A stretch of DNA of 40,653 nucleotides from Vasconcelosia minhoensis LEGE 07310 (GTDB taxonomy: Bacteria > Cyanobacteriota > Cyanobacteriia > Phormidesmidales > Phormidesmidaceae): NCBI RefSeq assembly GCF_015207255.1, contig NZ_JADEXG010000049.1, forward strand, positions 1 through 40,653, in the 5' to 3' direction. The notes under the pieces were generated by a model. The model was given only the letters and a program-made list of their open reading frames with translations, made no database searches and was not told where the DNA came from. A program made the position numbers and the translations under genes. Of this stretch, positions 3,802 to 11,069 are shown in pieces. The number at the start of each line of letters is the position of its first letter. Position 1 is the stretch's first letter.

Positions 3802-4017
3802 GTGATCTTTCAAGACCTGACCCTGCAAAACTTTGGCCCCTATCGAGGCCGCCATCACATCAACCTCTTGCCCGAGCCCGACCGACCCATCATCCTTTTT
3901 GGCGGCCTCAACGGCGGTGGCAAAACCACCCTGATGGATGCCATTCGCCTGGTGCTCTACGGTCAGCGCGCCCAGTGCTCCACCCGGGGCAGCCTGGCCT
4001 ATGCCGACCTTGTGTAA
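3802..4017 (+). pseudogene. dndD: dndD 5' remnant (truncated SMC-like ATPase of the Dnd complex)
   Basis: A GTG at 3802 opens 71 codons that match the start of Dnd[17 protein letters not shown], then [20 protein letters not shown] holding the Walker A motif, then LYGQRA. DndD is normally well over 600 residues, with a coiled coil and a C-terminal signature and Walker B half. Here it stops at TAA 4015-4017. Everything past the Walker A region is absent, and the sequence continues immediately into the opposite-strand toxin stub. ATPase function, and so phosphorothioation by this locus, should be lost. Confidence 0.85.
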
Positions 4018-4034
4018 ACCAGTCGCCAGCTCAC
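3999..4034 (-). pseudogene. 5' stub of a YoeB/Txe-like toxin gene
   Basis: On the minus strand a GTG at 4034 overlaps the antitoxin stop (GTGA) and reads [11 protein letters not shown] before a TAG at 4001-3999. The opening matches the usual N-terminus of YoeB/Txe-family ribosome-dependent mRNA interferases, which lie directly downstream of YefM antitoxins with this type of overlap. The remaining 70 or so codons are missing because the sequence switches to dndD. The catalytic C-terminal residues are gone. Confidence 0.6.
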
Positions 4035-4273
4035 CAATCTAGTTCTCCAGCGCAGTCCTCAACCGGCGTGGCTAGCCCGGCCCTAATCGACTCGCGCATT
4101 CCGGGCACTGACAGCAGATAGAGCGTTTCCTGAATGCTAGACCAGTCCTCTTCAGACAGCAAAACCGCGTTGCTGCGAGCACCCTGGATTAGCATGGGCT
4201 GATGGGACTCCGTCACTTCGTCAATTACCTTTTGCAGATTGAGCTGAGCATCGTCAACGGGCAAAGTAGACAT
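4031..4273 (-). CDS. YefM/Phd-family antitoxin, toxin partner deleted
   Basis: This 80-residue protein (MSTLPVDDAQLNLQKVIDEV, then AVLLSEEDWSSIQETLYLL) is a clear YefM/Phd antitoxin: an N-terminal DNA-binding fold, the conserved LLSEEDW.s..ETLYLLS segment, and an acidic C-terminal tail that normally wraps the toxin. In intact pairs it neutralises YoeB and represses its own promoter. Only an 11-codon stub of the toxin follows. The gene sits between the dndD remnant and dndE in the opposite orientation, so the module probably lay within the dnd operon before the deletion. Confidence 0.8.
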   Translation of the reverse strand: MSTLPVDDAQLNLQKVIDEVTESHQPMLIQGARSNAVLLSEEDWSSIQETLYLLSVPGMRESIRAGLATPVEDCAGELDW

Positions 4274-4381
4274 CTTGGCTCTCTAAGCTAGGGAGTAATG
4301 CATTCTCTGCAATTATACAAACGCGCGTTCAGCCTCGTCTCTGTAAAATCCCTTCTAGCACCCCAAAGATGATTATTGCCC

Positions 4382-4786
4382 ATGGAACCGCCCATTGACC
4401 GAATCAAACTCTCCCAACCGGCGAAAGATCAGCTGATTAAGCTTAAGCGCATTAGCAAAATTCAAAACTGGAACGTGCTCTGCCGCTGGGCGCTGTGTCG
4501 CTCCCTGGAAGAAAAATCATCGCCCTCACCGGTGCCCATCCCCAGCGACAGCAATGTTGAAATGACCTGGCAGGTCTTCGGTGGCCCGATTGCCGACCTG
4601 CTGCTGATCGCCCTAAAGCAGCGCTGCCACGATGAGAATCTTGGCACCGAACCCGAAATCCTGGCCGAGCAGCTGCGCCTGCACCTGCATCGCGGCATCG
4701 GCTATCTGGCCGGCGATCCCAAGATTAAATCCTTGGAAGACTTGATCTCACTCGCATCTGAGCCAGCTTTGAGGACAAATCAGTAG
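4382..4786 (+). CDS. dndE: DndE, DNA sulfur modification protein
   Basis: A 134-residue protein from ATG 4382 (a TTG at 4376 would add two residues). It matches the DndE family: PPIDRIKLSQPAKDQLIKLK at the N-terminus, then WNVLCRWALCRSL, EMTWQVFGG and a helical C-terminal half with the family's usual LHLHRGIGYL segment. DndE is a small helical nicked-DNA-binding protein that assembles with DndC and DndD to place sulfur in the DNA backbone. The frame looks complete and of normal length, so it outlives its two broken partners. It is now separated from the dndD stub by the antitoxin gene. Confidence 0.85.
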   Translation: MEPPIDRIKLSQPAKDQLIKLKRISKIQNWNVLCRWALCRSLEEKSSPSPVPIPSDSNVEMTWQVFGGPIADLLLIALKQRCHDENLGTEPEILAEQLRLHLHRGIGYLAGDPKIKSLEDLISLASEPALRTNQ

Positions 4787-6605: not shown

Positions 6606-6845
6606 TTCCTTCAGCGCGTAGCGCCCATCCCCGAGCTTTTTGAAGAAAGCGGGCGATCCGGTTTTGCGGCTGCTGCCCTCGCAGCGTCGCTCGATGGCAG
6701 AGCGGACAATCTGGCGGGGATTCTTGGCATTAAACGTGTAGAGGCTTTGATCGATAATTGCCTGGGTCACATCGGCAGCCGTCATCGGAGTCTGGGCTGA
6801 CTTGAGCACCTGGGCTGCAGCCTGAGCAACCGTTTGTTTTGCCAT
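6597..6845 (-). CDS. HARE-HTH domain protein
   Basis: An 82-residue protein whose whole length fits one winged-helix HARE-HTH (HB1/ASXL) domain: AAAQVLKSAQTPMTAADVTQ, then IIDQSLYT, then a C-terminal GDGRYALKEL wing. In bacteria this domain is found with restriction and modification enzymes and has been proposed to sense or bind modified DNA. It is preceded by a GAGAG-type ribosome site and lies 16 bases after the small PIN-partner gene, at the end of the dndC-PIN transcript. A link to phosphorothioation is inference from position. Confidence 0.75.
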   Translation of the reverse strand: MAKQTVAQAAAQVLKSAQTPMTAADVTQAIIDQSLYTFNAKNPRQIVRSAIERRCEGSSRKTGSPAFFKKLGDGRYALKELG

Positions 6846-7538: not shown

Positions 7539-8772
7539 CTAACAAATATCACTGAATAGCAGCGGCTGAATGCTGCCATCGGAAAGAATCTCAGGTAGCC
7601 AGGTATCACCTCGATACTCGGTACCATCCCATTTCTCAGGCCAAGTATCCGCTGAAATTAGCGCTTCAATTCGAGCTAGCTCTTCGTCATTGATTAAGCT
7701 GATTTCTGGCTGTCGATGCTCCCTAGCCCCGGCATTCACCGCTGCTTCAATCCGCTGTACTTCGCCCAGCATCCAGCAGCGGGCTTCCATCGTCAGCGGA
7801 CCCAGCCTGCCTTGCTTAGCCGCTAGACTGCCGTCCTTACGAGTTTCGCCGTGCTTGCGCAGTCGGTACTGGGGCGACTTAATCTGCCAGTAAAGTCCCC
7901 GCAGCTCCTGCAGCGGAGCTAGATAGGCCCATTTAGGGTTTTGCAAAATCCGCTCTAGCGCTGTGTCCTGCTGGACCAGCGGGCAGCCGATACAGCCGGT
8001 ACGGGCATTCATCGGCTCGGTTTCGCCCAACTCGTCCTGGGGATTATGGCCATAGACTTCGGCCACCTCGTAGGTTGGGTAGCCTAGCTCCACATCCGCC
8101 TGCACTAGCCAATCCCAGACATGGCAAACGCGCCAGTGCAGCAGCGGCGCTAGGGTATCCGCGAAAAGCCTTCGGCATAGCTACGCTTACCGCGCCTGAC
8201 GAAGACTGCTGAAACCAGCCCTGCCCGCATTCGCCGCCATCTTTGCTACAGCTCAGGGCAATCCGCTGATCCCGGGCGGCGCTTTCGCCCATCCGCACGC
8301 CCGTCAGCATCAGCAGCTTTTCGCCACAGGTTTTTCTTACCGCTTCTAGCTCGCGCTCCATGCTCATCACCTTGAGCTTGGGCGTACACCAGCGAAAGGT
8401 GTTGCTTGGCGGCGGCACCCCTCGGCCCAGCATATAGACAAAATAGCGATGGTCCAAGGCGGGCAGCACCACTCGCGTATCGAAGCCCTGAGCCTTCAGC
8501 CGGTCGAGCAGCCTGAGCGCGGCCTGGTGCAGCGGCGGCAGCTCTTGCCGGGTGTCGGCATAGAGGATGGTTAAACTTTTGGGGTGGGGAATCTGGCCCG
8601 TCTCGACCAGATGGGCAACCAGCGTCACCGTAGCTGAAGAATCTTTACCGCCGCTAAACGCGATCGCCCAGTGCTGGTATAACGCACCATAGTGGGTCAA
8701 CGACTCAATCGACAGATCAATGCTGCGCGAAAGCGACAGCCGCTCATCTTCAAATAGGCTGAGGTTTCTCAT
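7539..8772 (-). pseudogene. dndC: dndC disrupted by a short repeat insertion
   Basis: DndC is the ATP-dependent PAPS-reductase-like enzyme that supplies sulfur with a cysteine-ligated Fe-S centre. The 5' frame carries the PP-loop SGGKDS (residues 40-45), FRWCTPK (C129) and CSKDGGECGQGWF (C175, C182). After residue 193 the frame is lost. The 3' frame resumes with DTLAPLLHWRVCHVW and has ARTGCIGCPLV and a normal C-terminus. Removing 31 bases at 8159-8189 restores one continuous frame of 401 codons, ending four bases before the PIN gene. As it stands the product ends prematurely without the last cysteine pair. Confidence 0.88.
8159..8194. repeat. Short dispersed-repeat insertion with 5-bp target duplication inside dndC
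   Basis: CCGCG at 8159-8163 is repeated exactly at 8190-8194. The 26 bases between, starting AAAAGCCTTCGGCATAGC, contain the self-complementary core GCCTTCGGC. Deleting one CCGCG plus the 26 bases restores the dndC frame precisely (SSSG-ADTLAPL). That is the footprint of a small mobile repeat with a target-site duplication. The core resembles small dispersed repeats known from filamentous cyanobacteria, by memory; no second copy was noticed in this window. Confidence 0.8.
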
Positions 8773-8972: not shown

Positions 8973-11069
8973 ATGAACCCTTCCTGCTCTGCGGCTCCAC
9001 TCACGATGCTGTCCCTGCATCAGCTAGCGACGCTCTGTCGGCAGAGCCCCATCGGCAAATGTCTGCCGGGTGCGTTCTATATTCATCACACCGCGCTGAG
9101 TCAGCTCGACCCTCAGCTACAAGCGTATGAAGCGCTGGCCCGTTCCTGGCTAAGCAACGACGTCTCCATCACGCTGGTCAAATTTCACTTTGAGAAACCG
9201 GCGCTGTCCTATTTGTTCTATCCCGACTTTGACTCAATGGCGCACCCAGCTTTAGCAGCCAGCGTTCAGATTGTTTTACCCAACGGTAGAACCGACTATC
9301 GCAGCTATTGCAATCGAGCCAATCCACCGGTGCTGCACCGTAAAGAGACCTTCGTTGCCCCAGACTATCCGGGCTACGAGATATTTGCTAGGCTGACGCA
9401 CCAGCAGGTCGCCTTGGGTCTCCTAGAGAATTCTCGAACTATTGGAACGCGCCTGGGATGGCAAAATCGGTTACAGGCTCATAATTTGATGATTGTCGAT
9501 CATCGGTTGGCCTGTCCGCTAGAGCAGCCTAGCTCGCCCCCGCAGGCTGTTCCCAATATTGAACGGCACAGGGCCGCCATCGTCAGAAATTCGCTGTCCA
9601 AGCCCGTGCGGCTAGCGCTGGAGGCGGGCCTGTTCTCGCCTGAGGCCACGTTTTTTGACTACGGCTGCGGCCATGGCGGCGACGTCAGCCGCCTGCATCG
9701 GCAGGGATATGCCAGCGCCGGGTGGGACCCCTACTATCAGCCGCAAATACCGCTGACCCAGGCCGATATCGTCAATCTGGGCTATGTGCTGAATGTGATC
9801 GAAGACGCCGCCGAGCGTCGTGAGGCTTTGGTCCGCGCTTGGGAATTATCCCAGCAGGCGCTGATTGTCTCAGCCCAGGTACTGATCTGCGATCGCGCCC
9901 AAAACACCCACGCCTATGGTGACGGCATCATCACCAGACGTAATACCTTTCAAAAATACTACGAGCAGGAAGAACTCAAAGCCTATATCGATCAGGTGCT
10001 GGGCGTCGATTCAATCCCGGTGGCTCTGGGAATCTACTTCATTTTTCGGGATGAGGCCCAGGCCGAGAATTTCCGCGCCTCCCGCTTTCGCTCTCGGGCC
10101 GCGATGCCCAGGGTGCGCCTCAGCATTCGGCGATTTGAAGACTGCCGGGAACGCCTACAGCCGCTGATGGATTTCTATACCGACCGGGGACGACTGCCCA
10201 AGGTAGATGAGCTTAGCCCGGAAACACTAAGGCCGCTTCAGGTCGAATTCGGCACCATTCGTCGAGCTTTTGGTGTGATTCTAAAAGCGACCGATGGAGG
10301 AGAGTGGGATGCGATCGCAGACAGACGCCGTCAGGATTTAATGGTCTACCTAGCTCTGAGCCATTTCGGTAGGCGGCCTAAATTCAGGGATCTGTCTCCT
10401 CCAGTGCAGCAGGATGTTAAGGCTCTGTTCGGCAGCTATCAGCAGGCTTGTACCGCCGCTGATCTGATGCTGATGAGCTTAGGGCGGATGGAGATTATTG
10501 AGGAACGCTGTCGTCAGAGCAGCCTTGGCCAGCAGCGCCCTAATTCTCTCTGGGTGCATGTCTCTGCGCTAGACCAGCTCGACCCGCTGCTGCGTCTCTA
10601 TGAAGGCTGCGCCTCCCGCACCATTGGCCGCCCCGAGGAGGCCGCCGTAGTCAAGTTTCACACCAGTACGCCCAAGATCACCTATTTATTCTTTCCGACC
10701 TTTGACACCGAGCCGCATCCAGCCTTGCATACCAGTATGCAGATTGGCCTACGCGATTTGCGTGTTCGTTATCGCGACTACGACCCTGCCGACAATCCGC
10801 CGCTGCTGCATCAGAAAGAGCAGATGATAACGCCAGACTATGCAGGGTACGGCAAGTTTGCTAAGCTCAGCCAGCAGGAGCGAAACTGGGGACTACTCGA
10901 TGACCTGAGTGCGATCTATGACCGTCAGGGCTGGGAAGAGTGCTTAGAAGCTCATTGCGCGGAACTTAAGGGTCATCGAATTGTCTGGCGCAAAGATACC
11001 AATCCCTACCAGATCAAATTGCTTCAAACCGCCCGTCGCCAGAGGTCAATTGCCTCAGAAACAGGATAA
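8973..11069 (+). CDS. DNA phosphorothioation-associated putative methyltransferase with duplicated flanking domain
   Basis: A 698-residue protein of the dnd-associated methyltransferase-like family (TIGR04096-type). A class I SAM-binding motif FFDYGCGHGGD lies near 227-237, followed by LGYVLNVIED near 275. N- and C-terminal regions are clearly related copies. Copy one (about 23-170) has KFHFEKPALSYLFYPDFD, HPAL and APDYPGYEIFARL; copy two (about 513-660) has KFHTSTPKITYLFFPTFD, HPAL and TPDYAGYGKFAKL. The start may also be ATG 9006. It is divergent from dndC across a 200-bp gap, so a shared control region is likely. Members sit next to dnd genes, but their substrate is not known. Confidence 0.8.
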   Translation: MNPSCSAAPLTMLSLHQLATLCRQSPIGKCLPGAFYIHHTALSQLDPQLQAYEALARSWLSNDVSITLVKFHFEKPALSYLFYPDFDSMAHPALAASVQIVLPNGRTDYRSYCNRANPPVLHRKETFVAPDYPGYEIFARLTHQQVALGLLENSRTIGTRLGWQNRLQAHNLMIVDHRLACPLEQPSSPPQAVPNIERHRAAIVRNSLSKPVRLALEAGLFSPEATFFDYGCGHGGDVSRLHRQGYASAGWDPYYQPQIPLTQADIVNLGYVLNVIEDAAERREALVRAWELSQQALIVSAQVLICDRAQNTHAYGDGIITRRNTFQKYYEQEELKAYIDQVLGVDSIPVALGIYFIFRDEAQAENFRASRFRSRAAMPRVRLSIRRFEDCRERLQPLMDFYTDRGRLPKVDELSPETLRPLQVEFGTIRRAFGVILKATDGGEWDAIADRRRQDLMVYLALSHFGRRPKFRDLSPPVQQDVKALFGSYQQACTAADLMLMSLGRMEIIEERCRQSSLGQQRPNSLWVHVSALDQLDPLLRLYEGCASRTIGRPEEAAVVKFHTSTPKITYLFFPTFDTEPHPALHTSMQIGLRDLRVRYRDYDPADNPPLLHQKEQMITPDYAGYGKFAKLSQQERNWGLLDDLSAIYDRQGWEECLEAHCAELKGHRIVWRKDTNPYQIKLLQTARRQRSIASETG

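Follow-up and report, generated by a model that had tools for sequence, protein, structure and literature searches.

A 25-nt SDR5-like repeat in a HIP1 octamer probably disabled a DndC-like gene within an apparently decaying dnd island

Introduction

What broke the reading frame of a dnd-type gene in this cyanobacterial genome, and can the break have silenced DNA phosphorothioation? The window, by which we mean the whole stretch of 40,653 nucleotides that was analysed, is contig C2 of a 5.26 Mb genome in 161 contigs. Within it, a minus-strand reading frame is broken at an inserted segment; both halves are open and lie one base apart. An earlier note had read the gene as dndC and the break as the work of a 26-bp mobile element that made an exact 5-bp target duplication and knocked out the phosphorothioation writer. 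We consider it very probable that, instead, an SDR5-like 25-nt repeat in HIP1 broke a DndC-like gene, likely causing a recent loss of function, within a dnd island that appears to be in decay. HIP1 is a cyanobacterial palindrome and a favoured landing site.

Results

A 25-nt insertion splits a HIP1 octamer

Two CCGCG words are present at 8159-8163 and 8190-8194, and excision of 31 bases across this span (8159-8194) restores a frame of 401 codons (400 aa and a stop), both as the earlier note had described. Alignment of the site with relatives, however, gave a net insertion of 25 nt, not 31, at 8166-8190 on the minus strand (coding strand GTAAGCGTAGCTATGCCGAAGGCTT). Excision of these 25 nt yields a protein of 402 aa in which the site reads A-F-A-D-T-L-A-P, and excision of 31 bases leaves A-D-T-L-A-P. 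The corresponding residues in the relatives are A-[V/I]-[A/S]-D-x-L-A-P, and the longer excision removes two codons that are conserved among them.

The element sits between bases 3 and 4 of HIP1, GCG|ATCGC, with a single A to T change. The first half of the octamer, GCG on the coding strand, is found at 8191-8193 and the second half, which reads TTCGC on that strand where intact HIP1 has ATCGC, at 8161-8165; taking out the window copy leaves GCGTTCGC. What had been described as a 26-bp element between duplicated target bases is thus a 25-nt insert in a HIP1 octamer that requires no duplication of host bases, unlike IS/MITE-type transposition with a 5-bp target duplication, and the repeated CGCG consists of the split HIP1 halves plus neighbouring bases.

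The element was absent from all 56 relatives with a readable site. In eight of them (L125, L127, L132, L138, L139, L142, L143 and L171), the intact octamer GCGATCGC stands exactly at the site. The expected empty site in relatives was found as far as absence of the element is concerned, but what these eight show is HIP1 and not the target of a duplication. The flanks in L138, TCAGGCGCG|ATCGCGGATA, equal those in the window except for the A to T change; the empty-site relatives belong to other genera, and we infer the pre-insertion base at that position. HIP1 octamers number 37 in the 40.7 kb of the window (1-40653).

Copies elsewhere in the genome keep the frame

Four good copies of the repeat were found in the genome, the window copy included, together with one degenerate copy at C49:60601. 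The other three good copies, at L021 (G000:C67), L022 (G000:C107) and L023 (G000:C54), are 24 nt long and in frame, and each adds 8 residues to its host protein. One lies in the dehydratase domain of a polyketide synthase, one at the end of a protein of the tRNA-nucleotidyltransferase type and one in a Uma2 protein; at the polyketide synthase copy, the relative L077 has an 8-residue gap at the same place. Excision of each 24-nt copy leaves a perfect HIP1 without duplicated host bases, and the prediction of many copies, each flanked by a 5-bp duplication, was not borne out. Among the four good copies, only the 25-nt window copy shifts a frame. That a tiny dispersed repeat broke the frame of the gene was, on the other hand, upheld by its absence from relatives and by its copies elsewhere in the genome.

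Chance does not account for the element: besides its three further good copies in the genome, its pattern had no match in 100 shuffles of the window, and reversed-pattern controls gave zero in every genome searched. A 27-base pattern with up to three mismatches was present in 28 of 390 genomes of the class. Related repeats reach 39 to 241 copies per genome in G293, G381 and G154 (L032, L059, L034 and L038); the copies that were read there have right flanks of the TTTACGC type and no HIP1 half. Outside this genome, HIP1-type copies are mostly of the 25-nt form; among copies found by patterns that left out the right side, the right flank is mostly ATCGC. In three genomes the 25-nt repeat lies within an IS1-type transposase frame (L053 in G020, L055 in G012 and L056 in G004), at codons that read G-D-[R/H]-S in related copies; G004 also has a related transposase with the site but without the insert. 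The IS1-type insert occupies the same place in two genera, which could reflect inheritance, spread with the insertion sequence or independent hits on a conserved HIP1-like site.

These copies bear on the possibility that the frame is broken only by an assembly or sequencing error, with one T too many in TTTT and a true insert of the in-frame 24-nt form. We regard such an error as unlikely: the genome's remaining three good copies have the 24-nt form and keep the frame, but other genomes usually have the 25-nt form, the L056 copy shares both the TTCGC half and the GGCTTTTCGC end with the window copy, and four T in a row make a short run for a sequencing slip.

The repeat resembles SDR5

Where PMC4390886 deals with its target site, SDR5, a small dispersed repeat (SDR) of Nostoc, is stated to insert exactly between the third and fourth nucleotides of HIP1. 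The repeat described here is likewise very small (24-25 nt) and lies between the same two nucleotides; unlike SDR5 of Nostoc, it occurs in a Leptolyngbya-type genome, in just four good copies. It appears to behave like SDR5, a family assignment that follows from target rule and size.

Elhai and colleagues are said to have given, in 2008, a length range of 21-27 nt for SDRs, which reportedly share a hairpin secondary structure. The window copy of 25 nt and the three others of 24 nt lie within that range. On folding, the two 25-nt consensus copies formed a stem of 9 bp, with z values of -1.6 and -2.0; the window copy did no better than its shuffles (z 0.1), and the 24-nt copies folded differently. 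A search for known structured RNAs at the site returned none, apart from one sub-threshold chance match.

Rickettsia palindromic elements are small repeats too, which insert within reading frames and so lengthen the product by a short peptide. The 24-nt copies resemble these in adding 8 aa within reading frames, but they are much shorter, HIP1-targeted and carried by an unrelated host, and the two are likened by description only.

The disrupted gene and its two halves

The N-terminal part of the gene (8166-8772, minus strand) encodes a PAPS-reductase/PP-loop domain with the motif SGGKDS; it is in frame through the insert and 78-84% identical to intact relatives. The C-terminal part (7539-8165, minus strand) carries the cysteine motif TGCIGCP, is shifted by one base without an internal stop, and is 68-84% identical to the relatives. 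Since three does not divide 25, the insert moves the frame by one and translation stops early, after 242 codons.

The gene resembles that for DndC, the DNA phosphorothioation sulfurtransferase (TIGR03183), in its PAPS-reductase/PP-loop domain, its SGGKDS and cysteine motifs, and its occurrence in dnd-type islands. It differs from canonical dndC in being shorter (about 400 aa), and its intact relatives, which match PAPS_reduct (Pfam), score 133-138 bits with TIGR03183, below the cut-off of 290. Two genomes, G006 and G013, have the DndC-like gene plus a canonical DndC at 677-682 bits. Judged by these profile scores, the window gene is a DndC-like paralogue and not dndC itself, as the earlier note had named it.

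Mean identity of the C-terminal half minus that of the N-terminal half was -0.076 for the window gene versus -0.089 among the relatives. The C-terminal half is thus no more diverged from the relatives than the N-terminal half predicts, which fits a recent insertion or, with lower probability, continued use of the gene. Both halves are conserved as in the relatives and give no independent sign of decay.

Continued function could come about by a ribosomal +1 shift at UUU-C (GCU UUU CGC, at the end of the insert) or from two separate chains, with a full-length or a split protein as the product. Inspection of the sequence suggests that a +1 shift there would bring the two frames together at the cost of a short insert, and the C-terminal half is free of stops and shows the conservation that the N-terminal half leads one to expect. 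No frameshift stimulator was identified at UUU-C, though, the downstream frame of 188 aa would have to start at a GTG within the conserved domain, and a recent insertion accounts for the C-terminal conservation equally well; we therefore think it quite improbable that the gene still works. Least tenable, and very improbable, is a mobile element of 26 bp flanked by an exact CCGCG duplication of 5 bp, with the implied empty site GCGCGGATACC. This reading draws on the CCGCG pair 31 bases apart and on the open frame after 31-base excision but would sacrifice the two conserved codons; the HIP1 empty sites of relatives largely refute it, and it does not agree with the clean excision of the other three genome copies.

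The dnd island is incomplete

An intact gene for a phosphorothioation-associated putative methyltransferase (TIGR04096; 840 bits, cut-off 150) is the divergent neighbour of the DndC-like gene, at 8973-11069 on the plus strand. Further away on the same strand lie a dndD remnant of 71 codons (3802-4017), which covers profile positions 1-70 of 650, and an intact dndE (4376-4786; TIGR03184, 123.2 bits, cut-off 71.85). The remnant is the genome's sole match to DndD. A search of the genome with TIGR03183 revealed no canonical or second DndC elsewhere. Between the shortened dndD and dndE (window 3802-4786), a Phd/YefM-type antitoxin gene lies on the opposite strand.

DndC, DndD and DndE are reported to be essential for phosphorothioate modification (PMC8569181). 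A functional set is not complete here: the genome has an intact DndE, a DndD stub of 71 codons and no canonical DndC. The insertion cannot be what silenced phosphorothioation, because DndD is missing, even if the DndC-like protein acts as DndC. The proposed knock-out of a phosphorothioation writer does not follow in such a genome, and neither "dated" nor "reversible-looking", as the knock-out had been called, finds support in the present data. By its gene content, the locus appears to be a decaying dnd island.

Discussion

We propose that a 25-nt SDR5-like repeat entered the DndC-like gene of a Leptolyngbya/Nodosilinea-type cyanobacterium, where it split a HIP1 octamer, GCG|ATCGC, between its bases 3 and 4, and that the resulting one-base shift leads to the early stop after 242 codons. 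The repeat probably moved by an SDR5-like route, and the DndC-like gene has most likely become a recent loss-of-function allele, as its reading frame suggests. The insertion is an ordinary event of the known SDR5-like kind and not a clean switch-off of phosphorothioation.

The locus documents clearly, for a Leptolyngbya-type genome, a HIP1-targeted mini-repeat together with its empty site, and the one genome holds copies that keep the frame as well as one that breaks it. It also permits a supposed target duplication to be reread as a split HIP1. A further idea, which we put forward as speculative and rather doubtful, is that HIP1-targeted repeats are tolerated in the 24-nt form, as an 8-residue insert, and break frames in the 25-nt form, and that the DndC-like gene may be read by a +1 shift at UUU-C. 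If true, a single base of repeat length would decide between decorating a gene and disabling it.

In many cyanobacterial relatives, the DndC-like gene adjoins the TIGR04096 methyltransferase gene and dndE. It adjoins intact dndE and dndD in G001, where no canonical DndC scores over the cut-off; the DndC-like protein may, judging from this gene order, serve as DndC there. In the window, a cyanobacterial dnd island is found in pieces, and the DndC-like and TIGR04096 methyltransferase genes outlast DndD in several relatives: DndD is fragmentary in G002, G015 and G033 (L071, L073 and L074), which retain the DndC-like gene and the methyltransferase gene along with a whole or partial dndE. The tail of the DndC-like protein at L074 resembles a HARE-HTH frame at 6606-6764 of the window. 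A 55-bp scrap with 89% identity to the DndC-like PP-loop region lies between unrelated genes at 1501-1555 of L019 (G000:C152).
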